From Pannonibacter indicus (lineage in GTDB: Bacteria > Pseudomonadota > Alphaproteobacteria > Rhizobiales > Stappiaceae): a stretch of 64,000 nt of DNA. The number at the start of each line of letters is the position of its first letter. Position 1 is the stretch's first letter. The stretch spans positions 1 to 64,000 of the forward strand of contig NZ_LIPT01000005.1 in the NCBI RefSeq assembly GCF_001418225.1, written 5' to 3'. Below the pieces are notes generated by a model. It saw nothing but the letters and a program-made list of their open reading frames with translations, had not been told where the DNA came from and did no database searches. Position numbers and translations under genes: made by a program. This document shows, one piece after another, positions 27,309 through 48,720 of the stretch.

Positions 27309-27348
27309 GGCTCAACTCCTTCAAGCAGAAGCTGCGGCACCGCTCGCG

Positions 27349-28167
27349 TCAGAGCACCAGCGCGCCCGCGCGGTTCTCGATCAGGCGCACCAGCGACAGG
27401 GCGGTCATTTCGGAGGATTTCGGATTGGAGGCGAGCGGCTTGTTGGTCAGCATCAGCTCCATGCTGCCGAAGGCACCGCTGGCCGTGAGGCGGTGAGCAT
27501 TGCCGGCAGCCGCCGGGTCTGCCACCAGCGCCACTTCCGTCCGGTCGAGGCCGAGCCCGGCCATGGCGGAGATGACGGCAACATTGGCATTTTGCGGGTA
27601 GGCGGCAGCCGCTTGCCGGGCGGTGCCGGTGAAGAAGGTGTGGGCCGAGGTGAGGTTATTGAGATCACAGACCGCCACGGCGGACGTGCCCTGCCAGGCG
27701 GCCGGGGGCTTGATGATCTCGTGGCGCACATGATCCAGTCCCAGCCGGGAAGCTGCGGCCAGCGCATCAATGCCGCCGAGTGCGCCGGGGGGCACGAGGA
27801 CCTGGGCACCGGTGCCTGCGGCCAGCGCCAGCAGTTCGTCCAGCAGAGCCCCCTCCACGAAGGCCGATGTCGAGGACACGGCAAAGTCCATTCCGGCAGC
27901 AAGGGCAGCGCGGCCAAACGGGGCGACACTCTCCCGCCCTGCGGCTTCCAGCACGAGGCCCGGCCTCTGCCCTGCCCTGTCCGCCAGTTCTTCCGGGGAA
28001 CTGATGTGGCGGCATCCGTCCGGCAGCCCCGCAAGATCTGCAGCGGCATCACGGGTCGCAACCGCAACAATGCGGACTGGCGCCTTGCGCTCAGCCAGAA
28101 CCGCCGCCACCCGGCGGGCGATGGCGCCCCAGCCGATGAGGGCAACGGCGAGCTCAGAGCCCTGCAT
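27349..28167 (-). CDS. aspartate dehydrogenase-like oxidoreductase
   Basis: The 272-residue protein matches the DUF108/aspartate dehydrogenase family, which uses NAD(P) to convert aspartate reversibly to iminoaspartate. Seen are a Rossmann start ALIGWGAIARRVAAVL (residues 8-23), the SSTSAFVEGALL and VPPGALGGIDAL blocks, and the family C-terminus SGAFGSMEL and NPKSSEMTALSLVRLIEN. The start at 28167 (MQGSELAV) overlaps the end of livF by 14 bases, so it is translationally coupled; the longer frame would run deep into livF. Its position within a transporter operon beside kynurenine-type genes is unusual: it may supply or consume a nitrogen-bearing intermediate rather than aspartate. Confidence 0.82.
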   Translation of the reverse strand: MQGSELAVALIGWGAIARRVAAVLAERKAPVRIVAVATRDAAADLAGLPDGCRHISSPEELADRAGQRPGLVLEAAGRESVAPFGRAALAAGMDFAVSSTSAFVEGALLDELLALAAGTGAQVLVPPGALGGIDALAAASRLGLDHVRHEIIKPPAAWQGTSAVAVCDLNNLTSAHTFFTGTARQAAAAYPQNANVAVISAMAGLGLDRTEVALVADPAAAGNAHRLTASGAFGSMELMLTNKPLASNPKSSEMTALSLVRLIENRAGALVL

Positions 28168-28855
28168 AGGCCTGCACCTGTTCTGCGTCCCGGTCCATGT
28201 CCTCTCCCGTCCCGCTCCAGACCGTACGGCCTTTCTCGACCACATAGTGCCGGTCGGCAAGGCGCTTGAGAACCGACAGGTTCTTGTCGATCAGCAGGAT
28301 CGACTGCCCCTCGCGCTTCAGGTGCTCGATGCAGTGCCAGATTTCCGTGCGGATGACCGGAGCAAGCCCTTCGGTCGCCTCGTCAAGGATCAGAAGGCGC
28401 GGATTGGTCATCAGCGCGCGGCCCACGGCCAGCATCTGCTGCTCGCCACCGGACAGGGTGGCTGCCATCTGATGCGCCCGTTCCCTGAGGCGGGGAAACA
28501 GGTCATAGACCCGCTCCAGCGTCCACGGGTCCTTGCGCTTCAGCCGGTTGGAGGCGGTGGCGACAAGGTTCTCGCGCACATTCAGCGTGGGGAAGATCTG
28601 GCGCCCTTCCGGCACCAGGCCTGCCCCCAGCCGGGCAATGCGCTCCGGTGCAAGGCCTGCGGTGGCCACGCCCTCGAACTGGATGGCGCCGCCGCGCGGG
28701 GCCAGAAGCCCCATGATGCAGCGGACGGTGGTGGTCTTGCCCATGCCGTTGCGGCCCATGAGCGTCACCACCTCGCCCTCGCGGATCTCAAGGTTGATGT
28801 CGAACAGAACCTGGCTCTTGCCATAGGCGGCCTGAAGGTTGGAGACGCTCAGCAC
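28154..28855 (-). CDS. livF: branched-chain-type ABC transporter ATP-binding protein LivF
   Basis: LivF is the second ATPase of a high-affinity ABC importer of the LIV/HAAT class. The 233-residue protein has Walker A GRNGMGKTTTV, the signature LSGGEQQMLAVGRAL, Walker B PRLLILDEATEGLAP and the LivF-type end. It overlaps livG by seven bases and the next gene by 14, so the operon is tightly coupled. Transport specificity cannot be read from the ATPase. Confidence 0.94.
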   Translation of the reverse strand: MLSVSNLQAAYGKSQVLFDINLEIREGEVVTLMGRNGMGKTTTVRCIMGLLAPRGGAIQFEGVATAGLAPERIARLGAGLVPEGRQIFPTLNVRENLVATASNRLKRKDPWTLERVYDLFPRLRERAHQMAATLSGGEQQMLAVGRALMTNPRLLILDEATEGLAPVIRTEIWHCIEHLKREGQSILLIDKNLSVLKRLADRHYVVEKGRTVWSGTGEDMDRDAEQVQAYAGL

Positions 28856-29604
28856 AGTTCGTCCTCCGCTCCGAGATAGGCCTCACGCACGGCCGGATTG
28901 TTGCGGATCCCGTCCACCGTGCCGCTGGCGATGATGCGGCCATAGACGAGCACAGAGATACGGTCGGCAAGCGCAAAGACCGCCTCCATGTCATGCTCAA
29001 CCAGCAGCATCGCAGCGCTCTTGCGGGTCTCGTTCAGCATGCCGATCATGGCCTGACTTTCCACATGGCCGAGACCAGCCATAGGTTCGTCCAAGAGCAA
29101 GAGGCGCGGCTTCATGGCAAGGGCCACCAGCAGTTCCAGCTGCTTCTTCTCGCCATGGGAGAGGTCCGACACGCGCACCCTGCCCCGCCCGGCAAGGCCG
29201 CTGGATGCCACCCGCTCCTCCGCTTCGGCCCAGACGGAACGGCGGCCGCGGACGAGATCGAAGATGCGGAAATTGTGGCCCTCGCGCACCTGGACCGCCA
29301 TGCCGATGTTCTCGAGCACGGTCATCTCGTCGAGCAGGCTGGTGATCTGGAAGGTGCGGCCAAGGCCGAGAGCCACGCGCTCCGGCACCTTGAGACCAGA
29401 AATTTCCTGCCCCGCCAGCCTGATGGAGCCCTCATCGGAGACAAGTTCGCCGCAGAGCTGGTTGATCAGGGTGGACTTGCCCGCCCCGTTCGGGCCGATG
29501 AGGGCGTGGATCTCGCCCTCGCGCACATCAAGGCTGACGTGATCGGTGGCAATCAGGCCGCCGAAGGTTTTCACCAGCCCATCGATGGACAGGATGACGC
29601 TCAT
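28849..29604 (-). CDS. livG: branched-chain-type ABC transporter ATP-binding protein LivG
   Basis: LivG is the first ATPase of the importer. The 251-residue product starts MSVILSIDGLVKTFGG and has Walker A IGPNGAGKSTLINQL, signature LSHGEKKQLELLVALA (HG instead of GG, a common LivG variant), Walker B PRLLLLDEPMAGLGHVE and the H-loop in LLVEHDMEAVFALADR. The start at 29604 overlaps the livM stop by four bases. A much longer frame that continues upstream is a shadow over livM and is ignored. Confidence 0.94.
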   Translation of the reverse strand: MSVILSIDGLVKTFGGLIATDHVSLDVREGEIHALIGPNGAGKSTLINQLCGELVSDEGSIRLAGQEISGLKVPERVALGLGRTFQITSLLDEMTVLENIGMAVQVREGHNFRIFDLVRGRRSVWAEAEERVASSGLAGRGRVRVSDLSHGEKKQLELLVALAMKPRLLLLDEPMAGLGHVESQAMIGMLNETRKSAAMLLVEHDMEAVFALADRISVLVYGRIIASGTVDGIRNNPAVREAYLGAEDELC

Positions 29605-30587
29605 TGGCCGCCTCCCCGGACAAGACGTGACACGCGGGCGATGAGGGCCTGCAGGCCGCCGCGCGTGCCCAGCACCAGCAGCAGAAGGATCAGGCCGAGC
29701 GCCAGAGGCCAATGCTCGGACCATTGCGCGAGGAATGTTTCCAGCACCAGGAAGGCGCCTGCACCGAGGAAGGGGCCGAACAGGGTGCCGGTGCCGCCGA
29801 GGATGACCATGATCATCAGCTCGCCCGATTTGGTCCAGTGCATCATGTCCGGCGAGGCAAAGCGCAGGAAATTGGCCATCAGCGCCCCGGCAAGCCCCGC
29901 ACCCATGCCCGACAGCACGAAGGCGTAGAGCTTGTAACGGTAGGCCGGAATACCGAGGGCAGCCATGCGCCGCTCGTTCTGGCGGATGCCGGAGATCACC
30001 GCACCGAAGCTCGACTGCGTCAGGCGGCGCAGGCCGAAGAAGAACAGGACGGTTATGGCCAGCACCACGTAATAGAAGGTGGCCCTGTCGCGCATGTTGA
30101 GCCCCGGCAGCTCGTTGCTGCGGCGGATGATGATGCCGTCCTCGCCGCCATAGGCCTTCAGCGAAACGAACAGGAAGAACAGCATCTGCGCAAAGGCGAG
30201 CGTGATCATGATGAACTGCACGCCGCCGGTACGCAGCGACAGCGAGCCGATGACCGCCGCGAAGAGCCCGGCCACCAGAACCGCCAGAGGCAGGGTGATC
30301 AGCATCTGGTCTGTGCCGGGAATGAAGCCGAACAGCGGCTCGCCGCTGGAATGGTGGGTGGCGAGAATGCCCACCACATAGGCGCCGATGCCGAAGAAGG
30401 CGGCGTGTCCGAAACTGACCATGCCACCATAGCCGAGCACGAAGTTGAGGCTGGCAGCGGCCATGCCATAGATGAGAATGCGTGTTGCCAGCGCCAGCAG
30501 CGAGGCCTGGCCGAATTCGGCCGTGAGCGTGGGAATGGCAGCAAGAAAGACGATGAGCAGAAGGGCAAGGATAGGCTTGCGCATCAC
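29601..30587 (-). CDS. livM: branched-chain-type ABC transporter permease LivM
   Basis: LivM is one of the two inner-membrane permeases of the importer. The 328-residue protein has about nine hydrophobic segments and the family blocks LNFVLGYGGMVSFGHAAFFGIG (here broken for brevity: YGGMVSFGHAAFFGIGAY) and ILGGTGTLFGPFLGAGAF in the last third. It overlaps livH by four bases and livG by four, so all are one transcript. Confidence 0.94.
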   Translation of the reverse strand: MMRKPILALLLIVFLAAIPTLTAEFGQASLLALATRILIYGMAAASLNFVLGYGGMVSFGHAAFFGIGAYVVGILATHHSSGEPLFGFIPGTDQMLITLPLAVLVAGLFAAVIGSLSLRTGGVQFIMITLAFAQMLFFLFVSLKAYGGEDGIIIRRSNELPGLNMRDRATFYYVVLAITVLFFFGLRRLTQSSFGAVISGIRQNERRMAALGIPAYRYKLYAFVLSGMGAGLAGALMANFLRFASPDMMHWTKSGELMIMVILGGTGTLFGPFLGAGAFLVLETFLAQWSEHWPLALGLILLLLVLGTRGGLQALIARVSRLVRGGGQ

Positions 30588-31498
30588 GACCCCGCTGCAA
30601 ACAGGCCCTTGGGCCGGACAAGAAGGACAAGGGCCATCAGCAGGTAGATCCCCATCGACGAGATGCCGGTGCCGAGCGCATCGGCTTCCGGCCCGGCCAT
30701 GAAATTGCGCAGAAGGCCCGGCAGGAAGGCGCGCAGGCAGGTGTCGATAACACCAAGACTGATGCCCGCCACGAATGCGCCCCGGATCGATCCGACCCCG
30801 CCGATGACGACCACAACAAAGGTCGCCAGCAGGATCTGCTCGCCCATGCCCACCTGAACGGCCAGGATCGGCCCGGCCATATAGCCGGCGAGCCCCGCCA
30901 GCAGCGCACCGAGGCCGAAGACCACCGTGTAGAGCAGGCGGATATCAACGCCGAGCGCCCGCACCATCTCGCGGTTTGTCGAGCCAGCCCGGACCAGCAT
31001 GCCGATGCGGGTGCGGTTGATGAGGAAATAGAGCCCCACCGCCACCAGAAGCCCCGTGCCGATGATCAGCAGCCGGTACGGTGGATAGTAAAGCCCCGGC
31101 AGCAGTTCCACCGATCCATCGAAGCCGGAGGGAAGCAGCGTGAAGACCGGCGAGCGGCCGAACAGCATGACGATGATCTGGTTGAACATCAGAATGAGCG
31201 CGAAGGTCGCCAGCACCTGGTCCAGATGATCGCGGCTGTAGAGCTTGCGGATCACCAGCGCCTCGATGGCAAGGCCGGTGAGGGCAGCGGCGCCAAGGGC
31301 TGCGGGAATGCCGAGCCAGAAGCTGCCCGTCTCCCCCGCGACCCAGGTGCCCGCATAGGCGCCCACCATGTAGAGCGACCCATGGGCGAGGTTGATCACC
31401 CCCATGATGCCAAAAATCAGCGTCAGCCCGGCCGCCAGCAGAAACAGCATGACGCCGTACTGAAGGCCGTTCAACAATTGCTCGAGTACTAGGATCAT
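30584..31498 (-). CDS. livH: branched-chain-type ABC transporter permease LivH
   Basis: LivH is the second permease. The 304-residue product has the LivH hallmarks LEQLLNGLQYGVMLFLLAAG, GIMGVINLAHGSLYMVGAY and VVVIGGVGSIRGAFVAG, with about eight membrane segments. It comes 185 bases after the substrate-binding protein gene, a gap containing a strong hairpin (31646-31671). That spacing is common where the binding protein must be made in excess over the membrane parts. Confidence 0.94.
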   Translation of the reverse strand: MILVLEQLLNGLQYGVMLFLLAAGLTLIFGIMGVINLAHGSLYMVGAYAGTWVAGETGSFWLGIPAALGAAALTGLAIEALVIRKLYSRDHLDQVLATFALILMFNQIIVMLFGRSPVFTLLPSGFDGSVELLPGLYYPPYRLLIIGTGLLVAVGLYFLINRTRIGMLVRAGSTNREMVRALGVDIRLLYTVVFGLGALLAGLAGYMAGPILAVQVGMGEQILLATFVVVVIGGVGSIRGAFVAGISLGVIDTCLRAFLPGLLRNFMAGPEADALGTGISSMGIYLLMALVLLVRPKGLFAAGS

Positions 31499-31683: not shown

Positions 31684-32850
31684 TTACATCTTGCACTGAT
31701 CAGCGTAGGCGTCGCCATAGTCTTCAAGGAGCTTGTCCTTGGTGACGGCCACTGGCTTGCCATCCGGACCGGCAACGATGTCCAGCAGATACCAGTCATG
31801 CACCGGATGCTGGTTCGGGCCGAACTTGAACTCGCCGCGCACGCTCTTGAAGTCCGCAGCGCGGACAGCTTCGCGGAACTTGCCGATATCGTCCAGGCCG
31901 CCGGTCTTGGCCAAAGCGGAGGAAATCAGCTTGGCCGTGTCATACCCCTGAGAGGCGTAATAGGTGATGGGACGGTTATATTTCTTATCCCAGGCCTCAA
32001 CGAACTCAAGGTTTGCGTCGTTGGTGAAGTCACGGTTCCAGTGGGCCGTCGCAAAGATGCCAATGGCAGCGTCGCCCACCGCGTTCAGCACCACCGCGTC
32101 GGTGGAAGGCTCGGACAGAACCATCGGGATCTGGCCGTTCAGGCCAGCCTGCGCATACTGCTTCAGGAAGGCGATGCCGAGGCCGCCCGGATGGAACTGG
32201 AACACCACTTCCGGATCGGCCGCGCGGATCTGGGCCATTTCCGAGGCGAAATCGGTCTGGTCGAGCTGGGTGTAGACCTCGCCAACGATCTCACCGCCGA
32301 AGGTGCGCTTGAAGCCGTTGATGGCGTCCTTGCCCGCCTGATAGTTCGGCGCCAGCACGAAAGCCTTGTTGAAACCGAGCTTCTTGGCTGCGGCACCGGC
32401 TGCCTCGTGCAGGGCATCATTCTGCCAGGACACGACGAAATAGTTCTCGTGGCACTCAGCACCGGCAAGGTTGGACGGGCCGGCGTTCGGGGAAATATAA
32501 ATCGCGTCATTGTTGACGATATCGGGCACGGTGGCGCCGGCGACGTTGGAGAAGACAATGCCGGTGAGCAGCTTCATGCCGTCGTCGTTCATGAACTTTT
32601 CGGCGATCTGGCGGCCGTTACCCGGCTTCAGGCCATCATCCTCGACAACCAGCTCGACCGGAACGCCTCCCAGCTTGCCGCCTTCCATTTCGATGGCCAG
32701 TAGCATGCCGTCGCGGATGTCCTGACCGAGATAGCCGCCGGGGCCGGACAGGGTCGTGATCATGCCGATCTTCAACGGATCCTGCGCCAGGGCAGTGCCG
32801 CTCATCAGCGCAGCGATGCCCGCTGCGGCCAGAAACAGTCTCTTCTTCAT
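31684..32850 (-). CDS. ABC transporter substrate-binding protein, LIV/HAAT class
   Basis: The 388-residue protein is the periplasmic receptor of the importer. It has a signal peptide (residues 1-22, MKKRLFLAAAGIAALMSGTA, cleaved after ALA) and the periplasmic-binding fold starting DPLKIGMITTLSGPGGYLGQ, with the SBP_bac_6/Peripla_BP family core. The start at 32850 follows GAGGGTGAAGAC on the minus strand; the longer frame above it is unsupported. Ligand is inferred from context only: kynurenine, anthranilate or a related aromatic amino compound is more likely than leucine, because every enzyme gene around it handles such compounds. Confidence 0.92.
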   Translation of the reverse strand: MKKRLFLAAAGIAALMSGTALAQDPLKIGMITTLSGPGGYLGQDIRDGMLLAIEMEGGKLGGVPVELVVEDDGLKPGNGRQIAEKFMNDDGMKLLTGIVFSNVAGATVPDIVNNDAIYISPNAGPSNLAGAECHENYFVVSWQNDALHEAAGAAAKKLGFNKAFVLAPNYQAGKDAINGFKRTFGGEIVGEVYTQLDQTDFASEMAQIRAADPEVVFQFHPGGLGIAFLKQYAQAGLNGQIPMVLSEPSTDAVVLNAVGDAAIGIFATAHWNRDFTNDANLEFVEAWDKKYNRPITYYASQGYDTAKLISSALAKTGGLDDIGKFREAVRAADFKSVRGEFKFGPNQHPVHDWYLLDIVAGPDGKPVAVTKDKLLEDYGDAYADQCKM

Positions 32851-32959
32851 GTCTTCACCCTCTGTTGTCGCCTTGCGGCAGCCAGCCGGATGCTGCCATC
32901 TTTGGTCAGCTCCAGTCTTGATCTTTTTTCCGGGACCCAGCTTGCACAGGGTCCAGAAA

Positions 32960-32977
32960 TATTTCAAGCCTAAAACA
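32960..32977. promoter_or_regulatory. imperfect palindrome upstream of the transporter operon (candidate MarR operator)
   Basis: TATTTCAAGCCTAAAACA matches the site before the anthranilate operon (44968-44985) at 16 of 18 positions. It lies about 110 bases upstream of the binding-protein start, immediately after the stop of the dioxygenase gene. Confidence 0.6.
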
Positions 32978-32978
32978 T

Positions 32979-34558
<1,580 letters not shown>

Positions 34559-34623
34559 CCTCATTGCCTTTCGGGCAGATGCCCGCCGAGGGGCAAAGTT
34601 GCGAAGGACGGCTGCTTTGGCCG

Positions 34624-36057: not shown

Positions 36058-36168
36058 GATGGGGCCTTCTGTTCCTTGGCTCTTTCGCCCTCGCCCACAG
36101 ACCGTGAGGCCAAAGGGCAAAGCGTGTTGAAGGCAGGATCGGCGAAAGCTGAATTATCATCAAGACAG

Positions 36169-36183
36169 ATTTATCTGATAAAT
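36169..36183. promoter_or_regulatory. LysR-type operator between divergent ALDH and LysR genes
   Basis: ATTTATCTGATAAAT is a perfect 15-base palindrome with the LysR-type T-N11-A pattern, in the 171-base gap between the aldehyde dehydrogenase start (36057, minus) and the LysR start (36229, plus). Confidence 0.7.
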
Positions 36184-36228
36184 TTATACTGGATTTCATA
36201 TCAATCAGACCGGTGGCGGAGTGCCTCC

Positions 36229-37155: not shown

Positions 37156-38790
37156 TCAGCTCGCCTCCTTCAGCCGGAACCGCTGGATCTTGCCGGTCTG
37201 CGTCTTGGGCAGGGCATCGGTGAAGAGGATCCGGCGGGGGTATTTGTAGGGCGCGATGGTTGCCTTCACGTGGTCCTGCAGGCGCTTGACGGTGGCTGCA
37301 TCCGGCTCGACGCCGGCGCTCAGCACCACATGGGCTTCAACGATCTGCCCGCGCTCCTCGTCCGGTGCGCCGATGACGGCGCATTCCAGCACGTCGGGAT
37401 GGGACAGAAGCGCCGCTTCCACATCGGGACCTGCGATGTTGTAACCGGCGGAAATGATCATGTCGTCGTTGCGGGCGGCAAAGTGGAAGTAGCCCTGCTC
37501 GTCCTGCCAGAAGGCATCCCCGGTGATATTCCAGCCCTCGTGCACGTAGCCGGCCTGGCGGCTGTCGGAGAGATAGCGGCACCCGGTCGGACCGCGCACA
37601 GCCAGACGCCCCACCTCGCCACGCGGCATCTCACAGCCCAGATCATCAACGATCCGCGCCTCGTAGCCGGTGACGGGGCGGCCGGTGCAGGCCGGGTGGC
37701 TGTCGCCGAAGCGGTTGGAAATGAAGATATGCAGCATTTCCGTGGCGCCGATGCCGTCCAGCATCGGCTTGCCGGTCTTGGCCATCCACTCCTCATAGAC
37801 TGGTGCCGGCAGCGTTTCGCCCGCCGAGACGGCGGCACGCAGGCTGGAGAGGTCCGCGCCCTCGTCCATCGCCTTCAGCATCACCCGGTAGGCGGTGGGT
37901 GCCGTGAAGCAGACCGTGGCGCGGTATTTCTGGATGATCTCGATGAGGTTCGGCGGCGAGGCGGTCTCCAGCAGCGCAGCAGCCGCCCCAAAGCGCAGCG
38001 GGAACACGGCAAGGCCGCCAAGGCCGAAGGTGAAGGCGAGCGGCGGGGAGCCGACGAACACGTCGTCCGGCGTCACGCCCAGAACCTCGCGGGCATAGCC
38101 GTCCGCGATGATCAGGATGTCCCGGTGGAAGTGCATGGTCGCCTTGGGATCACCCGTGGTTCCCGAGGTGAAACCCAGCAGCGCCACGTCATCGCGGCCC
38201 GTCTTCACGGCTTCAAAGCGCACCGGCTTGCCCAGCGCGGCCCGGTCCAGCTCCGCATCATGATTGGCGGTGCCGTCAAAGCCGATCACGGTCTTGAGGT
38301 AGGCAGAATCCTTGGCGCAGGCGGCCATCTCGTCCATCAGCCGCGTGTCGCACAGGGCCACCGTGATCTCAGCCTTGTCGACAATCTTGGCCAGTTCCCC
38401 CGCCCGCAGCATCGGCATGGTGTTGACCACCACGGCACCGGCCTTGGTCGCCGCCAGCCAGCAGGCCACCATGGCCGGATTGTTGGCCGAGCGGATCAGC
38501 ACCCGGTTGCCCGGCTTCACGCCATAATCCTCGACCAGCGCATGGGCGATGCGGCTCGTCCAGTCGGCCAGTTCCTTGTAGGTGCGCTGGCGGCCATTGC
38601 CGATCAGCGCCACATGGTCGCCGAAGCCCTTTTCCACCATGCGGTCGGTCAGCTCGACGCCCGCGTTGAGGTAGTCCGGGTAGTCGAAGCCCTCAAGCTT
38701 CAGCTCCGGCCACAGTTCCACGGGCGGCAGGTTGTCCCGGGTGAATGTATCCACATGGGCACTCGGGCCCAGTTTCAGCACAGCTGTCAT
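37156..38790 (-). CDS. 2-aminobenzoate (anthranilate)-CoA ligase / benzoate-CoA ligase family
   Basis: This adenylate-forming enzyme activates an aromatic acid to its CoA thioester. The 544-residue protein has the AMP-binding signature LGFTSGTTGDPKATMH, the TGE-like DGIGATEMLHIF block, NITGDAFWQDEQGYFHF and the catalytic C-terminal lysine in LPKTQTGKIQRFRL. It groups by sequence with 2-aminobenzoate-CoA ligases and benzoate-CoA ligases. It is the last gene of the operon led by the 2-aminobenzoyl-CoA monooxygenase/reductase, so 2-aminobenzoate is the likely substrate. The start is one of TTG-ATG-ATG at 38796/38793/38790; 38790 has the best spacing from AGGGGA. Confidence 0.9.
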   Translation of the reverse strand: MTAVLKLGPSAHVDTFTRDNLPPVELWPELKLEGFDYPDYLNAGVELTDRMVEKGFGDHVALIGNGRQRTYKELADWTSRIAHALVEDYGVKPGNRVLIRSANNPAMVACWLAATKAGAVVVNTMPMLRAGELAKIVDKAEITVALCDTRLMDEMAACAKDSAYLKTVIGFDGTANHDAELDRAALGKPVRFEAVKTGRDDVALLGFTSGTTGDPKATMHFHRDILIIADGYAREVLGVTPDDVFVGSPPLAFTFGLGGLAVFPLRFGAAAALLETASPPNLIEIIQKYRATVCFTAPTAYRVMLKAMDEGADLSSLRAAVSAGETLPAPVYEEWMAKTGKPMLDGIGATEMLHIFISNRFGDSHPACTGRPVTGYEARIVDDLGCEMPRGEVGRLAVRGPTGCRYLSDSRQAGYVHEGWNITGDAFWQDEQGYFHFAARNDDMIISAGYNIAGPDVEAALLSHPDVLECAVIGAPDEERGQIVEAHVVLSAGVEPDAATVKRLQDHVKATIAPYKYPRRILFTDALPKTQTGKIQRFRLKEAS

Positions 38791-38925
38791 CATCAATCCC
38801 CTGGATGGTTGCCCGCTGTCGCGGACCTGCGGCTCTTCCTTTTTGCGGAAGCGGGTTTTCCCTTGAGCCGCCTTGTCTTGTTCCTGAGCGTCGTCTTCCC
38901 GAATTTCACGATCCGCGCATGCGGA

Positions 38926-39360
38926 TCACTCCGGCACCACGGCGGTTGCCTCGATCTCCACCAGCGCCTCGTCTTCCACGAGGCCGGCCACCTGCACCAG
39001 CGCCATGGCCGGAAAGTGCTTGCCGAGCACCTTGCGGTAGACGGCGCCCACATCGCGCAGGCTGGCGAGATAAAGCTGCTTGTCGGTGACGTACCAGGTC
39101 ATCCGCACCAGATGCTCCGGCCCGGCCCCGCCCTCGCGCAGCACCTCGACGATGTTCTTCAGCGTCTGTTCCACCTGTCCGGTGAAGTCCTTCGCCTCGA
39201 ATTCCTGCTGGCCGTTCCAGCCGATGAGCCCGCCAAGGAAAAGAATGCGGCCGCTCGCGGCGACGCCGTTGGAATAGCCCTTGGCGGGCTTCCAGTTGCG
39301 CGGGTTCAAGAACGCGTGCGGACTTTCGCCGGTGGAGGCATCTGCCGTTGTCTGTGTCAT
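38926..39360 (-). CDS. RidA (YjgF/YER057c/UK114) family deaminase
   Basis: RidA-family enzymes hydrolyse enamines and imines, releasing ammonia; some members are 2-aminomuconate deaminases. The 144-residue product has the core block SGRILFLGGLIGWNGQQEFE (about 32-51) and LVRMTWYVTDKQLYLAS. The family catalytic arginine region LVRMTWYV is present. Placed between the CoA ligase and the acyl-CoA dehydrogenase, it fits either release of the ring amino group as ammonia after ring cleavage in the anthranilate route or deamination of 2-aminomuconate from the 3-hydroxyanthranilate route. Confidence 0.88.
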   Translation of the reverse strand: MTQTTADASTGESPHAFLNPRNWKPAKGYSNGVAASGRILFLGGLIGWNGQQEFEAKDFTGQVEQTLKNIVEVLREGGAGPEHLVRMTWYVTDKQLYLASLRDVGAVYRKVLGKHFPAMALVQVAGLVEDEALVEIEATAVVPE

Positions 39361-39423: not shown

Positions 39424-40569
39424 TCAGCGCGCCTCGCCCAGCGCGGCGCGGGCGATGACGATCTTCTGCACGTCGCTGGCGCCCTCATAGATGCGCAGGG
39501 CGCGGATCTCGCGGTAAAGGCTTTCCACGGCAAAGCCCTTGCGCACGCCGTCGCCGCCATGCAGCTGCAGGGCCGTGTCGATGACGCGCTGGGCCGCTTC
39601 CGTCGCATGCAGCTTGGCCATCGCCGCCTCGCGGCTGACGCGGGCTGCGCCCATGTCCTTGGTCCAGGCAGCGCGGTAGACCAGCAGCGCCGAGGCATCC
39701 ACATCCAGAGCCATATCGGCGATATGCCCTTGCACCATCTGCAGTTCGGACAGAGGCGCGCCGAAAAGCTGGCGCTGGCGCACGCGCGCCAAAGCCTCTT
39801 CCAGTGCACGGCGGGCAAAGCCCAGCGCCGCTGCACCGACAGTGGAGCGGAACACGTCCAGCACCGACATGGCGATCTTGAAGCCGTCCCCGCGCTTGCC
39901 GATCAGTGCCGTCTCCGGCAGGCGGATGCTGTTGAAACGCAGATGCGCCAGCGGATGGGGGGCCATCACCGCGATGCGCTCGACGATCTCCAGCCCCGGC
40001 GTGTCCGCAGGCAGCAGGAAGGCGGAAAGCCCCTTGGCCCCCGGCGCTTCGCCGGTGCGGGCAAACACGACGTAGAGATCGGCAATGCCGCCGTTGGAGA
40101 TGTAGGTCTTCTCGCCGGTCAGGATGAAGCCGCCCGGAACGGCCTCTGCCGCTGCGGTGCTGTTGGCCACATCCGAACCGGAGCCCGGCTCCGTCAGGGC
40201 AAAGGCGCTGATCACAGTGCCGGCACGGGTACGCTCCAGCCACTTGCGCTGCTCCGCCGTGCCGAACAGGGACACTGCCCCCATGCCCAGCCCCTGCATC
40301 GCAAAGGCAAAATCGGCCAGGCCATCATGCCGGGCCAGCGTTTCGCGGATGAGGCAGAGGCTGCGCACATCCAGCGTCTCGCCCTCGCCTGCCCCTGAGT
40401 GGCGCAGCCAGCCGGCCTGCCCCAGATCGCGCACCAGCGTGCGGCAGGCCTCGTCCGTGTCGGCATGGTCCACATGCAGATGGGCGGCGCACCAGGCATC
40501 CAGCGCCTCGGCCAGCTCGCGGTGGCGGGTCTCAAAAAAGGGCCAGGAGAGGAAAGAGCGGTCGGCCAT
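39424..40569 (-). CDS. acyl-CoA dehydrogenase
   Basis: The 381-residue flavoenzyme has the family signatures [20 protein letters not shown], the FAD/ETF region [18 protein letters not shown], and the C-terminal block [20 protein letters not shown], with conserved [19 protein letters not shown]. It would oxidise a CoA thioester in the ring-opening or beta-oxidation part of the 2-aminobenzoyl-CoA pathway. The start at 40569 ([19 protein letters not shown]) lies one base past the stop of the enoyl-CoA hydratase gene, so the two are translationally linked. Relatives of this gene occur in other anthranilate-CoA clusters. Confidence 0.92.
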
Positions 40570-40570
40570 C

Positions 40571-41383
40571 TCAGTTGCCCTCGAAAACCGGCTTCTGCTT
40601 GGCGACGAAGGCATGGTAGGCGCGGGCGAAATCCTGCGTCTGCATGCAGATCGCCTGTGCCTGCGCTTCCGCCTCGATGGCCTGTTCCAGCCCCATGTTC
40701 CATTCCTGGTTCAGCTGGGTCTTGGTGATGCCATGGGCAAACACAGGCCCGGAGGCAAGCCTTGCTGCCAGCGCCATGGCTTCCTCTTCCAGCTTGTCCG
40801 CCTCGTGCAAGGCATTGAAGAAGCCCCAGCGCTCGCCCTCGGCTGCGCTCATGGTGCGGCCGGTGTAGAGCAGTTCCGCCGCCCGGCCCTGTCCGATGAT
40901 GCGCGGCAGCATGGCGCAGGCGCCCATGTCGCAGCCCGCAAGGCCAACGCGGGTGAAGAGGAAAGCTGTCTTGGCCTCCAGCGTTGCCAGCCGCAGGTCG
41001 CTGGCCATGGCAATGATCGCCCCGGCCCCAACGCACACACCATCCACCGCCGCGATGATGGGCTTGCCGCAGCCTATCATGGCCTTCACCAGATCACCGG
41101 TCATGCGGGTGAAGGCGAGCAGGCCCTTCATGTCGAGCCCGACCAGCGGGCCGATGATATCATGCACATCCCCGCCGGAGCAGAAGTTGCCCCCATTGGA
41201 GGTGAAGACCACCACATCCACGTCCTCGGCATAGACGAGGGCGCGGAAGGTGTCGCGCAGCTCGGCATAGCTGTCGAAGGTCAGCGGGTTCTTGCGGTCG
41301 GGACGGTTGAGGCTGACGCGGGCGATGCGGTCCTTCACCTGCCAGAGAAAGTGCCGGGGCTTCAGATCAGCCAGAGCGGTCAT
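40571..41383 (-). CDS. enoyl-CoA hydratase/isomerase family protein
   Basis: The 270-residue crotonase-fold protein has the oxyanion-hole segment [17 protein letters not shown] (about residues 57-73) and the second loop [19 protein letters not shown]. It may hydrate or hydrolyse a ring-derived CoA ester in the 2-aminobenzoyl-CoA route. It overlaps the MarR gene by four bases upstream and is followed one base later by the acyl-CoA dehydrogenase. Glutamates at the usual hydratase positions are not both obvious, so hydrolase or isomerase activity is also possible. Confidence 0.9.
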
Positions 41384-41862
41384 TGCGCGTCCTTCCCGAG
41401 TTTCTTCAATATGTCCTTGAGCGCGTCCAGGTCCGCGTCCGTCAGCCTGGCGAAGAGCTGATCCACCTCCCGCTCGTGATCGGCGGCCAGCTTTTCGAAC
41501 TGCGCCAGCCCCTCGTCCGTCAGCGACACATGCACCGTGCGCCGGTCCGCCTCGAAGGGCACACGGCGGACGAGGCCGTCCTTTTCCAGCCGGTCCACCA
41601 CCGTGGTGGCATTGCCGTTGGAGACGAGCAGCAGGCGCGACAGTTCGCTCATGCTCAGCGGCACGCGGCGGCGGTAGAGCGCGGCCATCACATCGAAGCG
41701 CGGCAGTGTCGTGTCATGCTCCACCCGCAGAAATTCACGCAGATGCGCTTCCGCCATGCGGGTGACACCGAGAATACGGATCCAGGTCTTCAGCCGGCGC
41801 TTGGAGAGCGGCACGGAGGCTGCTTCCGTTTCCTGCAAGGCGGTTCCCTTCTCTGCGCTCAT
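41380..41862 (-). CDS. MarR-family transcriptional regulator of the anthranilate operon
   Basis: The 160-residue protein has a MarR winged helix (about residues 45-115, [20 protein letters not shown] and the wing region [18 protein letters not shown]). It is encoded inside the catabolic operon, overlapping the SDR gene before it and the hydratase gene after it by four bases each. MarR proteins in aromatic-CoA clusters are usually repressors relieved by a pathway CoA ester. The palindrome TATTTCAAGCTTAAAATA in the operon's promoter region is the natural candidate operator. Confidence 0.9.
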
Positions 41863-42599
41863 ACCTCGCCTCCCGAAATGGCCATTGCCTGCCCGTTCAC
41901 CCCGTCAGATCCGGCAGCGCACAGATAAAGGGCCATGGCCGTCACCTCCTGCGGGGTGATGAGGCGCTTCTGCGGATTGGTGTCCGCAAGGGCGGCCATG
42001 GCATCGTCCCGGCTCTTGCCGGTCTTGGCCATGATGTTCTGCACGGAGCGTTCCGTCATCTCCGTGTCGAGGAAGCCGGGGCAAATGGCGTTGACCGTCA
42101 CCGGACGGCGGGCCACCTCCAGCGCCAGCGCCTTTACAAGGCCGACAACCCCGTGCTTGGCCGCCACATAGGGCGCGACATAGGGATAGCCTTTCAGCCC
42201 GGCGGTGGACGCAATGGCGATGAGCCGCCCCCAGCCGTCCATCCGGGCGAGCCCCTCGCGGAAGGTGAGGAACACGCCGGTCAGGTTCACCGCCAGCATG
42301 GCATTCCACTGATCCAGCGACGTGCGCCCAAACGGGGCGCTTTCGGCAGCGCCCGCATTGGCAATCACCACATCCACCGGGCCTGCAGCCTCGAACAGCA
42401 CCTTCACGGAAGCTTCATCTGTCACGTCCGCCGTCAGCGCCCGCACGCCCGGCAGCGAAGCCGCCACCGCCCGCAGCGGCTCTGCCCGCCGGCCGGTGAT
42501 GATGACCTGCGCTCCGGCAGCATGGAAGCCGCGGGCCAGATCTGCCCCTGCGCCCGTACCACCGCCCGTGATGAGAACACGCCGTCCTGCTACCGTCAT
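41859..42599 (-). CDS. short-chain dehydrogenase/reductase
   Basis: The 246-residue SDR has the NAD(P) motif [18 protein letters not shown] (residues about 7-24), the NAG element in [11 protein letters not shown], and the catalytic Ser/Tyr/Lys pattern in [23 protein letters not shown], of which YVAAK supplies Tyr and Lys. It probably works as a beta-hydroxyacyl-CoA dehydrogenase in the 2-aminobenzoyl-CoA route. It overlaps the monooxygenase/reductase gene by four bases and the MarR gene by four. Confidence 0.9.
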
Positions 42600-44911
42600 G
42601 CCCGGATCACCTCTCCTGCTGCCTTGGCGCCGTCCTTCTTCGCTTTTGCCTGCTCGGCAAGGCGAAGGGCCTGGTCACGCCCGGCGAGATACGGCAGCGG
42701 CCAGCTGGCCTTGCGGTCGCCCTGCTCCACCGCCGCATGCAGCGTCCAGTAGGGATCGGACAGATGCGGACGGGCAAGGCAGACAAGATCGGCACGGCCT
42801 GCCATCAGAATCGAGTTCACCTGATCGGCCTCTGTGATATTGCCCACCGCCATGGTCGCCAGCCCTGCCTCGTTGCGGATGCGGTCGGAGAACGGGGTCT
42901 GGAACATGCGGCCATAGATGGGGCGCGCGTCCGTCGTCGTCTGACCGGCGGAGACGTCGATGATGTCGGCACCGGCTTCAGAGAAGGCCCGGGCGATTTC
43001 CACCGCCTCGTCCGGCGTCACACCAGCCTCACCCACCCAGTCATTGGCCGAGATGCGCACGGACATGGGCTTATGCTCCGGCCAGACGCCACGCATGGCG
43101 CGGAAGACTTCCAGCGGATAGCGCAGGCGGTTTTCAAGGCTGCCGCCATATTCATCGGTCCGAACGTTCGACACCGGCGAGATGAAGGAGGACAGGAGAT
43201 AGCCGTGGGCGGCATGCAGCTCGATCATGTCGAACCCGGCGCGCTCTGCCATCTTCGCCGCCTCGACGAACTGGCCGAGCACCAGATCCATGTCGGCCCG
43301 GTCCATCGCCTTCGGCACCGCATTGCCCTTGGACCAGGCAATGGCGGAAGCGGACAGCAGCGGCCAGTTGCCGTCCGGCAGCGGCGCGTCCATCCCTTCC
43401 CAGCCAACCTGCGTCGAGCCCTTGCGGCCCGAATGGCCGATCTGGCAGCAGATCTTGGCTGCCGTTTCCGTATGGACGAAATCCGTCAGCCGCTTCCAGC
43501 CAGCCTCATGCTCCGGCGCATAGAGGCCGGGGCAGCCGGGAGTGATGCGCCCTTCCGCCGACACGCAGGTCATTTCGGTGAAGACAAGCCCTGCCCCGCC
43601 CTTGGCCCGCTCGGCATAATGGATCAGATGCCAGTCGCCCGGCACCCCGTCCACCGCCTTGTACTGGGCCATGGGCGAAACGACGATGCGGTTCTCCAGC
43701 CGCATGCCGCGCAGCGTGAAGGGAGCGAACATCGGCGTGCGGCCAGGCTGGCCGCCGGCCTGCTTCTGGAACCAGTCTTCAGCGGAGCGCAGCCACTCCG
43801 GATCACGCAGGCGCAGGTTCTCGTGGGAAATGCGCTGGGAGCGGGTGAGCAGCGAATAGTTGAACTGCACCGGATCAAGGTCCAGATAGCGCTCCACCTG
43901 CTCGAACCATTCCAGCGAGTTGCGGGCGGCAGACTGCAGGCGCAGCACCTCGATGCGGCGCTCTTCCTGATAGCGCTCGAAGGCCGCTTCCATATTGTCT
44001 TCGCTGTGGAGATAGGTGGCCAGCGCAATGGCACTGTCAAAGGCCAGACGCGTGCCGGAGCCGATGGAGAAATGCCCAGTCGCCGCTGCATCGCCCATCA
44101 GCACCACATTGCCGTTATACCACTTCTCGCAGATCACCCGCGGGAAGTTCATCCAGACGGCAGAGCCGCGCAGATGCGCCGCATTGGACATGAGCTTGTG
44201 GCCACCGAGATGTGCGGCGAACACCTTTTCGCAGGTCTCGATGGTCTCTTCCTTGGACATGTGCTCGAACCCGAAGCGGTCCCAGGTCTCCTGCGTGCAT
44301 TCCACGATCACCGTCGCCGTGTCGGCATCGAACTGATAGGCATGCACCCACATCCAGCCGTGCTCGGTCTTCTCGAAGATGAAGGTGAAGGCGTCATCGA
44401 ACTTCTGGTGCGTGCCGAGCCAGATGAACTTGCACAGGCGCAGATCCACATCGGGCTTGAACACATCGGCATATTCGCGCCGCACCAGCGAGTTGATGCC
44501 GTCGCTGGCGACCACGAGGTCATAATCCTTGCGGTAATCTTCAGCGGTCTTGAACTCCTGCTGGAATTCGAGCTTGATACCCAGCTCCCGCGCCCGCTCC
44601 TGCAGGATAATCAGCAGCTTCTTGCGGCCGATGCCGGCAAAGCCGTGGCCGCCAGAGACGGTGCGCACACCGTTGTGCACGACGGCGATGTCATCCCAGT
44701 AGGAGAAGTTGGCGCGGATCTCTTCCGTGCTCTTGGGGTCATTGCGGGCCATGTTGCCCAGTGCATCATCCGACAACACCACACCCCAGCCGAACGTGTC
44801 GTTCGCCTTGTTGCGCTCCAGCACCGTGATGTCATGGGCCGCATCACGCAGCTTCATCGAGATCGCAAAATAGAGCCCCGCAGGCCCGCCCCCCAGGCAC
44901 AGGATCTTCAT
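42596..44911 (-). CDS. 2-aminobenzoyl-CoA monooxygenase/reductase (salicylyl-CoA 5-hydroxylase-like fusion)
   Basis: This 771-residue two-domain flavoprotein hydroxylates and then reduces the ring of 2-aminobenzoyl-CoA, giving a non-aromatic CoA ester for beta-oxidation-like cleavage. The N-terminal half (about 1-390) is a PHBH-type FAD monooxygenase, with [20 protein letters not shown], the [14 protein letters not shown] block and [14 protein letters not shown]. The C-terminal half (about 405-760) is an old-yellow-enzyme domain ([20 protein letters not shown], then [17 protein letters not shown]). The fusion is the hallmark of ACMR; salicylyl-CoA 5-hydroxylases of the same build are the alternative. 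First gene of the operon. Start at 44911 follows AAGGGACTGCGGCA. Confidence 0.93.
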
Positions 44912-44967
44912 TGCCGCAGTCCCTTCCGTTTGTCTTGTTGAGCATGAGCCTGCCACCAGCTGAAAAT

Positions 44968-44985
44968 TATTTCAAGCTTAAAATA
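44968..44985. promoter_or_regulatory. imperfect palindrome in the promoter region of the anthranilate operon (candidate MarR operator)
   Basis: TATTTCAAGCTTAAAATA is a palindrome with a single mismatched pair, 57 bases upstream of the monooxygenase start. Nearly the same sequence stands before the transporter operon (32960-32977), and the half-site AAGCTTGAA recurs before trpL (46248-46259). Confidence 0.65.
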
Positions 44986-45111: not shown

Positions 45112-45522
45112 ATGCTGCAGGAAATCCCCCGCACCCGGGCTGTGCCGGACGTGCCGCAGATCACCGCCGAAGAAGCGGCAGCGATGGCGCGGGCGGTGAT
45201 CCGGCTGTTCGAACGCTGGCAGTTGTCCGATGCGCAGGCGCGGGAGATCCTCGGCGGCCTCCCGGCCCGCACCCATGCGCGCTGGAAGGCGGGTGAGCCG
45301 GGGCGTATCGACCGTGACCTTGCCACCCGCCTCTCCCTGCTGATGGGCATCCACAAGGGCCTGCGTTATCTCTTCACCGAGGCGGAGCGCGGTTATGCCT
45401 GGGTGCGCAAACCCAATCCGGTGTTCGGCGGGCGTTCGCCGGCCGAGGTGATGGTGCAGGGCGACATATTCTCGCTGGCCCGCGTGCGCGCCTATCTCGA
45501 TGCAGAGCGCGGCGGCTTCTGA
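45112..45522 (+). CDS. Xre/MbcA/ParS-type antitoxin of a RES toxin-antitoxin pair
   Basis: The 136-residue antitoxin has an N-terminal Xre-like helix-turn-helix part (about 15-75, with ITAEEAAAMARAVIRLFERW and LSDAQAREILGGLP) and the C-terminal MbcA/ParS/Xre toxin-binding domain (about 80-136, with LSLLMGIHKGLRYLF and WVRKPNPVFGGRSPAEVMVQ). The GGRSPAEVM motif is the usual marker. Its stop codon TGA overlaps the toxin ATG by one base, so the pair is translationally coupled. The start at 45112 follows AAAGGAGCTGATC; the open frame upstream is ignored. Confidence 0.92.
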   Translation: MLQEIPRTRAVPDVPQITAEEAAAMARAVIRLFERWQLSDAQAREILGGLPARTHARWKAGEPGRIDRDLATRLSLLMGIHKGLRYLFTEAERGYAWVRKPNPVFGGRSPAEVMVQGDIFSLARVRAYLDAERGGF

Positions 45523-46211: not shown

Positions 46212-46247
46212 AAGATGAAAAGAGCCGTCCCGTAAGGACACAAATAA

Positions 46248-46259
46248 TTCAAGCTTGAA
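46248..46259. promoter_or_regulatory. TTCAAGCTTGAA palindrome upstream of trpL
   Basis: A perfect 12-base palindrome whose half AAGCTTGAA is shared with the sites at 32960 and 44968. It overlaps a possible -35 (TTCAAG, 46248-46253) with TATTTT at 46270-46275 as -10 at 16-base spacing. Whether this is a regulator site or chance is open. Confidence 0.4.
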
Positions 46260-46364
46260 GCGACTGGTCTATTTTGCAACAGGGGTCAGGCAAGTGGCGC
46301 TGGGGTGGTCTTTACGCCATTTCCCCGGTTGCCTGCCGCCTGTGGCTGCGCTAGGCAAACAGGC

Positions 46365-46412
46365 ATGAACACGCAGATGATCCGCATGGGCTGGTGGTGG
46401 CAGGACGCTTGA
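46365..46412 (+). CDS. trpL: trp operon leader peptide
   Basis: A 15-residue open frame, [15 protein letters not shown], contains three consecutive tryptophan codons. Stalling of the ribosome there when Trp-tRNA is scarce decides whether the downstream RNA folds as antiterminator or terminator. It lies 140 bases before trpE(G), with the regulatory hairpins between. Rhizobial trpE(G) genes have an equivalent Trp-rich leader. It is too short for routine gene finders. Confidence 0.9.
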
Positions 46413-46414
46413 TT

Positions 46415-46497
46415 GGCGGCCTTGCGATTTCTCATGTTCTGACGTGATCGAAGTTGACCCAAAGGCCGCCGCGGCAAGACCCGCAGGCGGCCTTTGG
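46415..46497 (+). terminator. trp attenuator with alternative antiterminator
   Basis: Terminator: CCAAAGGCCGCC (46459-46470) pairs with GGCGGCCTTTGG (46486-46497). Antiterminator: GGCGGCCTT (46415-46423), just past the leader stop codon, can pair instead with AAGGCCGCC (46462-46470). The two structures use the same strand and exclude each other, the classic attenuator design. Confidence 0.85.
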
Positions 46498-46551
46498 TCT
46501 GTCTGGGGTCTGGCCGGAGGAAGGCCTGGACCTGAACTGGAGGATGGACGA

Positions 46552-48720
46552 ATGCCGGTACCGGCTGAGCAGACTTTCAAGACCAAGGGCGGCATTGCCG
46601 TCACGCGCGGCGCACGCCCGGCAGACTATGCGGAAGGAACCTCCCGCTGGATCGACAGGCTGGATGCAGAGCGCGGCGCGGTCCTCTCCTCCTCCTATGA
46701 ATATCCGGGCCGCTACACCCGCTGGGACATGGCGCTGGTCAATCCGCCGCTGGTGCTGGAATCGGCAGGGCGCAACGTGGAAATCCGCGCCCTCAATGCC
46801 CGTGGCCTTATCCTGCTGCCCGCCATTTCCGGGGTGCTCGCCGCCCATCCGGACGTGGAAGACTTTACCGCCACCGAAGGCCGCATGACCCTGACGGTGC
46901 GCAAGCCCGCCGCCCCCTTCCGCGAGGAAGACCGCTCACGTCAGGCCTCCACCTTCTCCATCGTGCGTGCCATCAAGGAACTGTTTGCCTGTGATGACGA
47001 TCAGCTCGGCCTTTACGGTGCCTTCGGCTACGACCTTGCCTTCCAGTTCGAGCCGATCGAGCTGAAGCTGAAGCGCCCGGCGGACCAGCGCGATCTGGTG
47101 CTGTTCCTGCCCGACGAAATCCTCATCGTCGACCACCATGGCCGCCGCGCCTATGTGCTGGAATATGACTTCGAGGTCGATGGCAAGCGCACCCATGGCC
47201 TGCCGCGTGATGGAGAGAAGCGGCCCTATCAGCCGGCCAATGAAGATCCGGGCCGGGGCGACCATGAGCCGGGGGAGTATGCGAAGATCGTGGACCGGGC
47301 CAAGGAATACTTCCGCCGGGGCGACCTGTTCGAGACCGTGCCGGGTCAGACCTTCTTCGAGCCCTGCGCCAACCCGCCCTCGGCCGTCTCCCGCCGCCTG
47401 CAGCAGATCAACCCCTCGCCCTATTCCTTCTTCATCAACCTCGGCAATGCGGAATATCTCGTCGGCGCCTCGCCGGAGATGTATGTGCGCGTCACCGGCG
47501 GGCGGCGGGTGGAAACCTGCCCCATCTCCGGCACCATCCGGCGCGGCAAGAATGCCATCGAGGATGAGGCGCAGATCCGCAAGCTGCTGAATTCCGCCAA
47601 GGATGAGGCGGAGCTGACCATGTGCTCGGACGTGGACCGCAACGACAAGAGCCGCGTCTGCGTGCCCGGCTCGGTCAAGGTCATCGGCCGGCGCCAGATC
47701 GAGATGTATTCCCGCCTGATCCACACGGTGGACCATATCGAAGGCATCCTGCGCGAGGACATGGACGCGCTCGACGCCTTCCTTTCCCATGCCTGGGCCG
47801 TCACCGTCACCGGTGCGCCGAAGCGCTGGGCGATGGAATTCATCGAGAACAACGAAAAAAGCTCCCGCGCCTGGTATGGCGGGGCCATCGGCGCCGTGCT
47901 GTTCAACGGCGACATGAACACCGGCCTCACCCTGCGCACCGTGCGCATCAAGGATGGTGTCGCGCAGATCCGCGCCGGTGCCACGCTGCTCTATGACAGC
48001 ATTCCGGAAGAGGAAGAGGCCGAGACCGAGCTGAAGGCCGAAGCCATGCGCGCCGCCGTGCGCGAGGCGGGGCTGGCCGTGAAGGCCACGGAAACCGTGC
48101 GCGAGAAGAAGCCAGGTGCGGGCCTCAAGATCCTGCTGGTAGACCATGAGGACAGTTTCGTCCATACGCTGGCCAACTACTTCCGCCAGACAGGGGCCGA
48201 TGTGGTCACCTACCGCACGCCTGTTGCAGACCACGTGTTCCATGACGTGAACCCGGATCTGGTGGTGCTCTCCCCCGGTCCCGGCAGCCCGAAGGACTTC
48301 GACTGCGCCGCCACCATCGGCCGCGCGCGCGCGCGCGGACTGCCGCTATTCGGCGTCTGCCTCGGCCTTCAGGCTCTGGCCGAAGGGCTGGGCGGAGAAC
48401 TTGGCCAGCTGGACGTGCCGATGCACGGCAAGCCCTCGCCCATCAGCCTCACCGGCAATTCGGTTCTGTTCGAGGGCTTGAGTTCGCCGGTCACGGTCGG
48501 CCGCTACCACTCGCTGTTTGCGAAGAAGGACAAGCTGCCCGCTGATTTCCGCATCACGGCGGAGACGGAAGACGGGGTGATCATGGCCATCGAGCACACC
48601 AGCGAGCCGATCGCCGCCGTCCAGTTCCACCCGGAAAGCATCATGTCCCTCGATCAGGACGCCGGCCACCGCATCATCGAGAACGTGGTGACCCGCCTGG
48701 TGAAGACGCGCCGGGCGTAA
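46552..48720 (+). CDS. trpE(G): anthranilate synthase, fused TrpE-TrpG
   Basis: The fused enzyme makes anthranilate from chorismate and glutamine, the first step of tryptophan synthesis. The 722-residue product has TrpE first (about 1-515), with the Trp feedback LVLESAGR block near the N-terminus and the catalytic segment [13 protein letters not shown], then a class I glutamine amidotransferase (about 525-720) with the catalytic cysteine in [12 protein letters not shown] (Cys603) and [10 protein letters not shown]. This fusion is typical of Rhizobiales. The start at 46552 lies eight bases after GGAGG. Leader peptide and attenuator are directly upstream. It makes the very compound that the preceding operon destroys. 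Confidence 0.96.

Follow-up and report, generated by a model that had tools for sequence, protein, structure and literature searches.

An autoregulated repressor of the MarR family, acting on the palindrome WATTTYAAGCTTRAAATW, very likely controls in Pannonibacter indicus both a putative anthranilate-degrading (catabolic) operon and a separate ABC transporter operon, and would respond to an inducer on the anthranilate side of the pathway, as judged from comparative sequence analysis of the window (the whole stretch of 64,000 nucleotides that was analysed), its genome and its relatives. A sequence-only reading of the window had proposed that one MarR regulon joins uptake and degradation, and the proposal gains support from the co-occurrence of motif, MarR gene and predicted targets, which spans Rhodobacterales and the window's own order. 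In the proposed mechanism, a MarR dimer would bind the palindrome and, since the latter covers the -35 hexamer at both operons, the bound repressor would exclude RNA polymerase, shutting its own operon (ABM/R, SDR, MarR, enoyl-CoA hydratase, acyl-CoA dehydrogenase, RidA and CoA ligase) as well as the ABC transporter operon. Once anthranilate had been taken up and activated, 2-aminobenzoyl-CoA (or anthranilate) would bind MarR and free the operators, import and degradation would rise together, and the added MarR production would reset the switch. We infer that this MarR is the binding protein, and that it represses and is autoregulated. The features concerned are collected in Table 1.

Table 1. 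Genes, candidate operators and promoter elements of the window
Feature	Positions	Strand	Remarks
LivF-like ATPase	28154..28855	-	
LivG-like ATPase	28849..29604	-	
LivM-like permease	29601..30587	-	
LivH-like permease	30584..31498	-	
ABC substrate-binding protein (SBP)	31684..32850	-	Peripla_BP_6; first gene of the transporter operon
-10-like hexamer, site A promoter	32939..32944	-	CAAGCT, 17-bp spacer
Site A	32960..32977	-	TATTTCAAGCCTAAAACA; minus-strand reading TGTTTTAGGCTTGAAATA; candidate MarR operator before the transporter operon
-35-like hexamer within site A	32962..32967	-	TTGAAA
AMP-binding ligase	37156..38796	-	benzoate-CoA-ligase-like (under that model's cut-off); proposed anthranilate-CoA ligase
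RidA/L-PSP family	38926..39360	-	PF01042
Acyl-CoA dehydrogenase	39424..40569	-	
Enoyl-CoA hydratase family	40571..41383	-	
MarR-family regulator	41380..41862	-	proposed repressor; recognition helix ~residues 82-94
SDR oxidoreductase	41859..42599	-	
ABM/R, bifunctional aryl-CoA monooxygenase/reductase	42596..44911	-	771 aa; FAD-binding and OYE-type domains
-10-like hexamer, site B promoter	44947..44952	-	CAGGCT, 17-bp spacer
Site B	44968..44985	-	TATTTCAAGCTTAAAATA; minus-strand reading TATTTTAAGCTTGAAATA; candidate MarR operator before the catabolic operon
-35-like hexamer within site B	44970..44975	-	TTGAAA
Xre/MbcA-ParS-type antitoxin and RES toxin pair	45112-46211		between ABM/R and trpE(G)
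Site C	46245..46262	+	palindrome TAATTCAAGCTTGAAGCG; the genome's only other exact 12-mer core besides site B
trp leader peptide	46365..46412	+	15 residues, attenuator type
Fused anthranilate synthase trpE(G)	46444..48720	+	TIGR01815; true start probably further in

Two palindromes at the transporter and catabolic promoters

The likeness claimed for sites A and B is real, with 16 of 18 bases identical by direct comparison; palindrome pairing, read directly, holds at 8 of 9 positions in site B and at only 6 of 9 in site A. Each site lies, as had been proposed, upstream of the first gene of an operon on the minus strand, A before the SBP gene (110 bp from site start to start codon) and B before ABM/R (57 bp), and site A sits one base past the HAAO (3-hydroxyanthranilate dioxygenase) stop codon. 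The MarR gene, which the same reading placed inside one of the operons, comes third in the catabolic operon, with a 4-bp overlap on either side. Neither two matches to site A at up to 2 mismatches (0/100, mean 0.00) nor two matches to the symmetrised motif at up to 3 mismatches (0/100, mean 0.03) were obtained in dinucleotide-preserving shuffles of the window. A scan of the whole genome, suggested earlier as a check and here based on mismatch counts, found matches to be rare and not randomly scattered. Besides sites A and B, the originally suggested motif has in the 4.17 Mb only two places, both at 3 mismatches (reversed control: 1), the symmetrised motif at up to 3 mismatches has 6 (reversed control: 0), and the genome has just two exact copies of the central 12-mer TTYAAGCTTRAA, one in site B and the other at 46248-46259, both within the window. 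With so few genome-wide matches and near-empty controls, the random scatter that would have told against the regulon is therefore not what the genome holds. The matches at up to 3 mismatches at C1:280628 (before an ORF) and at C26:16447 and C4:59484 (inside ORFs) were set aside as chance, family searches giving no name there.

At both window promoters the palindrome lies over the -35 hexamer, and a -10-like hexamer follows 17 bp further. These -10-like hexamers are far from the E. coli consensus and visible only through the comparison of loci; scanning for the sigma-70 consensus gave no promoter at any of the sites A, B and C. Among 73 ABM/R loci (described below), TTGAAA stands inside the palindrome in 67, and xAxxxT follows with a 17-bp spacer in 60 and a 16-bp spacer in 12, where some 3.4 would be expected for each spacing. 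The pattern is also present at the transporter sites of L006, G006, G062 and G064 (17 bp) and of G061 and G199 (16 bp); it is not clearly seen at the four sister-family transporter sites tried, nor at the kynU sites tried.

The proposed repressor has the winged-helix domain (PF01047, 4.6e-12) and the fold of the MarR family. Its structure model (mean pLDDT 83.7, pTM 0.71) comprises helices at residues 19-49, 53-65, 71-78, 82-94, 116-136 and 142-157 and strands at 98-102 and 110-114; 810 of 1000 chains compared with it reached Z>=8, and the best 50 of these 810 (Z 15.2-16.7) are nearly all named MarR-type regulators; neither CouR nor any other single MarR was singled out by the fold comparison. 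The PDB 7kfo series, which we take to be structures of MarR_73/IadR, is among the nearer solved sequences (42.2 bits). Both MarR and ABM/R are 98% identical to proteins of P. phragmitetus DSM 14782. As for the pathway, a CoA ligase and a bifunctional monooxygenase/OYE-type reductase, the combination by which the anthranilate-CoA route is recognised, are both present, as judged by domains only. The cargo of the transporter would be anthranilate or a close relative. The transporter operon seems to continue (26433-28260) into an aspartate-dehydrogenase-like gene and an alpha/beta hydrolase, and 32979-37131 holds a cluster of HAAO, a DHDPS-family aldolase and an aldehyde dehydrogenase with a divergent LysR gene (36229-37131); the aldolase and the aldehyde dehydrogenase are unusual partners for 3-hydroxyanthranilate dioxygenase.

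The motif and its neighbours in other genomes

Relatives of the MarR at 66-98% identity are located in the same operon in other Alphaproteobacteria, and 80 loci, mostly from Rhodobacterales, were retrieved through this gene. Once 7 of them had been dropped for lack of an ABM/R start in the retrieved sequence, the palindrome was found to start 61-96 bp upstream of ABM/R in all of the remaining 73, with 0, 1, 2 and 3 mismatches in 36, 23, 12 and 2 loci, respectively. Elsewhere in these loci it has 13 matches in 1,349,876 positions, five of which, in four loci (L005, L006, L056, L057), lie directly behind HAAO with the SBP gene next; the reversed motif has no match elsewhere, and at least one at up to 3 mismatches upstream of ABM/R in 2 of the 73. 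When 63,983 window positions were scored with a matrix of 29 distinct sites, none of them from Pannonibacter, the top three, and the only ones to score >=15 bits, were in this order site B (33.4 bits), site A (24.1) and the site at 46245 (19.0), and the information per base over the 73 ABM/R rows is 1.69 bits in the site columns against 0.43 and 0.40 in the 40-bp flanks; ranks and column conservation are partly circular, since the pattern was shaped after the window sites and first relatives had been seen and the rows were aligned on their best match, most strongly so for the 10 thinned transporter rows, which were chosen for having the site.

Among 61 relative genomes, 25 carry the motif at up to 1 mismatch, at 29 places (reversed control: 1 genome), and 26 of these places precede ABM/R or SBP; relatedness between genomes is ignored in these and the other genome tallies. 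The remaining three are L087 (G046), where the motif lies 22 kb from ABM/R, L095 (G026) and L096 (G023), the last of which carries two copies; at these three places the search identified no target gene. ABM/R itself is present by the cut-off in 24 of the 25 motif-bearing genomes, and beside a contig end in the 25th, G060. In eight genomes picked for known matches, 16 of the 20 places at up to 2 mismatches are at ABM/R, SBP or kynU, the other 4 falling outside these (reversed control: 2). When ABM/R loci were found without using MarR (30 of 36 matches examined), 27 of the 30, own genome included, had the motif at up to 3 mismatches within 400 bp, and L139, L143 and L144 did not. No MarR is nearby in L144; in L143 it has VTGGN, altered in the recognition region, VSNGN or VSAGN being kept in eight MarRs of 40-49% identity that have the motif in common; in L139 it is 50% identical and the absence of the motif is unaccounted for. 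Several sister genera have MarR-SDR and ABM/R transcribed divergently, with one site in common.

Two palindromes upstream of ABM/R, overlapping at a 14-bp offset, are present in L018, L031, L044, L065, L079, L319 and others, and this arrangement, found in many Rhodobacterales ABM/R promoters, suggests two repressor dimers side by side. Furthermore, the near-match TATTTTATGTTTGAAAGT recurs in L009, L015, L022, L034, L038 and L059, and with one base different in L029; at the four places inspected it stands upstream of one conserved gene, which is presumably flavin-monooxygenase-like.

On the transporter side, site A is kept in all five genomes of the genus (G000-G004), and an SBP homologue was examined in 41 of the 45 relatives with a match, many of these homologues being only 42-50% identical. 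Most relatives have either a separate palindrome at the transporter gene or that gene inside the operon: among the 33 with ABM/R and an examined SBP, 21 have a palindrome before the SBP gene (five of them from one genus), 10 have the SBP behind the CoA ligase within the operon, and G024 and G008 have neither. Among the 8 examined relatives without ABM/R by the cut-off, G060 alone has an SBP palindrome (0 of the 7 others), and the reversed motif gave 0 of 46 SBP loci. The association of SBP palindrome with ABM/R has a Fisher p, relatedness ignored, of 0.016 with G060 counted as lacking ABM/R and of 0.003 with G060 omitted. HAAO-linked transporters outside the genus have a palindrome in G006, G061, G062, G199 and G064 (not independent, because found through the motif) and none in G024, G053, G188 and G202; the other SBP copy of G053 has one, and G188 and G202 have it at ABM/R (1 mismatch). 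Within Rhodobacteraceae, 63 SBP matches were obtained in 149 genomes and 30 were examined, 5 of which have a palindrome within 400 bp, one weakly; most of the palindrome-less ones are ~50% identical, and some may be no orthologues or may come from genomes without ABM/R.

Some genomes extend the set to kynureninase. The gene kynU scores above the cut-off in 30 of 32 genomes, and 7 of the 30 loci (~4.1 kb each) have the motif at up to 3 mismatches (reversed control: 0), always within 150 bp upstream of kynU. Four sites have 2 mismatches (G026, G032, G062 and G065, the last first found through the motif) and one has 3 (G023, same genus as G026 and G032); those of Pannonibacter G003 and G004 are weak, with 3, and the own-genome kynU has no site at up to 3 mismatches. 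G062 has sites at all three of ABM/R, SBP and kynU. In Ruegeria pomeroyi, an alpha/beta hydrolase and tryptophan 2,3-dioxygenase are transcribed divergently from ABM/R, with a site in the intervening DNA. The kynU sites and this layout tie the regulon to tryptophan/kynurenine breakdown via anthranilate. A weak palindrome of 3 mismatches at C3:139973 of the own genome, ~170 bp upstream of the kynurenine formamidase gene kynB (TIGR03035), is a weak candidate for a further site; among 12 kynB loci it is found only in the own one and in G002 (4 mismatches). The same region (L310, C3:132000-146000) contains kynU, kynA, another gene, which we read as a GGDEF/EAL protein, and kynB, together with a second Liv-type ABC transporter.

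These distributions bear on who binds the palindromes, and where. They might belong to another regulator, such as the LysR-type protein at 36229-37131, whose gene is divergent from the ALDH-aldolase-HAAO genes adjoining site A, or an unlinked factor, with MarR controlling something else; that MarR is their binder is, after all, a prediction. We consider this very improbable: the motif accompanies MarR-bearing ABM/R operons at many loci without that LysR nearby, occupies the intergenic region of the divergent MarR-SDR and ABM/R in sister genera, and is not found at ABM/R loci whose MarR is absent (L144) or altered (L143), though neither is it at L139, and the LysR-ALDH interval has a best matrix score of -1.0. 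Were site B the only true MarR operator, site A would be no more than a degenerate copy, or one arisen by chance, in the AT-rich promoter of the transporter, in line with its 6/9 pairs, its 24.1 bits against the 33.4 of B, and the HAAO-linked transporters of G188, G202 and G024, which lack a site despite MarR and ABM/R. On the other hand, P. alkalilacus (G061) and G199 carry an identical site A despite SBPs at only 57-61% identity, equivalents of this site with diverged flanks precede distant SBP genes of other families, and site A scores above the weakest training site (21.4), all of which makes a chance copy quite improbable.

A MarR acting at both sites could also answer to salicylate or salicyloyl-CoA, as inducer and substrate, rather than to anthranilate or 2-aminobenzoyl-CoA. 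NCBIfam indeed names ABM/R a salicylyl-CoA 5-hydroxylase/oxidoreductase (1300.8 bits, cut-off 1078), whereas its genomic context points to anthranilate/2-aminobenzoyl-CoA as the substrate: the catabolic operon includes a RidA-family gene, presumably an enamine/imine deaminase, HAAO adjoins the transporter, and palindromes stand upstream of kynureninase in five genomes and beside the tryptophan 2,3-dioxygenase of Ruegeria pomeroyi. Salicylate is thus unlikely, and for Arthrobacter the part of the source drawn on here describes an anthranilate pathway that employs a CoA ligase and a monooxygenase/reductase (PMC3534580), the likeness being one of enzyme description.

Site C before the anthranilate synthase gene

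A third palindrome, site C, was absent from the sequence-only reading, as were the kynureninase sites of other genomes. It lies ~100 bp upstream of the trp leader, and its core is present in 7 of 7 Pannonibacter sequences (probably 5 genomes, because L005/G002 and L006/G004 look alike here) and in 0 of 17 other trpE(G) loci with upstream sequence. A short ORF with WW or WWW is found upstream in all 22 trpE(G) loci having upstream sequence, one of the 23 (L344) being left out for having none. Rfam gave no leader RNA near trpE(G), its only match being on the other strand (E 0.26), and the fold of the trp leader is not unusual (z -1.13). In four of the seven Pannonibacter sequences, site C and the ABM/R site are ~160-210 bp apart; in the window the Xre/RES toxin-antitoxin pair parts the two by ~1.28 kb, a spacing shared by L005 and G002. 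The four other Pannonibacter sequences have no room for this pair between ABM/R and trpE(G).

From its sequence and place, site C may serve trpE(G) as an operator or ABM/R as an auxiliary one; no convincing -10 was found at the promoter spacing in either direction. Its occurrence before trpE(G) in all Pannonibacter sequences examined means that the making and breaking of anthranilate may have one repressor, and we regard it as a tentative, rather doubtful possibility that in Pannonibacter a single MarR governs anthranilate import, degradation and, through site C, trpE(G), whose product catalyses the first committed step towards tryptophan. While the ligase drained anthranilate, the same signal would then raise anthranilate synthase, so that tryptophan synthesis would not be starved, and site C would form a transcription-factor layer over the trp leader attenuator.

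Known regulators and significance

The nearest parallel in mechanism is CouR of Rhodococcus jostii RHA1, a MarR-family repressor which, in the parts of the paper drawn on here, controls an aromatic-acid catabolic regulon whose pathway runs through CoA thioesters, uses as operator an inverted repeat lying on the -35 box at several promoters, its own among them, and is released by aryl-CoA and not by the free acid (PMC4737184). By analogy with this release by aryl-CoA, the inducer in Pannonibacter would be 2-aminobenzoyl-CoA, or anthranilate itself. The window has, by sequence only, a CouR-like layout, with a putative operator over the -35 of the repressor's own and of a further operon. CouR (5cyv) and the MarR model share the same fold (Z 15.8, rmsd 2.9 over 141 residues, tied with many MarRs), but are 16% identical in the structural alignment and serve different pathways, and the CouR box, given there as cATTGA-N5-TCAATg (PMC4737184), is not the window motif WATTTYAAGCTTRAAATW. 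MarR_73/IadR of Variovorax is likewise a MarR repressor of an indole-derived aromatic catabolic locus; it binds the free acid indole-3-acetate and its locus differs from that of the window, as far as the source was drawn upon (PMC9613470). KynR controls the bacterial kynurenine genes kynABU, but it is described in the sections used as a kynurenine-responsive Lrp/AsnC protein (PMC4349456), unlike the MarR of the window, whose motif precedes kynU only in some genera. The attenuation of trpLE(G) in S. meliloti likewise involves a WWW leader peptide before trpE(G), while Pannonibacter has in addition a MarR-type palindrome before the leader, a possible second layer with respect to what the consulted part of that work presents (PMC7298713). 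Among the regulators of aromatic amino-acid metabolism, only HmgS is named as a MarR one in the parts consulted of PMC5343134, and the consulted parts of PMC6221969 name the anthranilate pathway and no regulator.

The type of mechanism is ordinary; within open-licence PubMed Central, RegPrecise lying outside the search, no description was found of the regulation of anthranilate-CoA catabolism, nor of this regulon. For the anthranilate-CoA catabolism of a large group of Alphaproteobacteria, the analysis puts forward a regulator, a candidate operator and a list of genes, and it links an ABC transporter, and in some genera kynureninase, to the anthranilate-CoA pathway. If site C works, one repressor would balance the making and the breaking of one metabolite.
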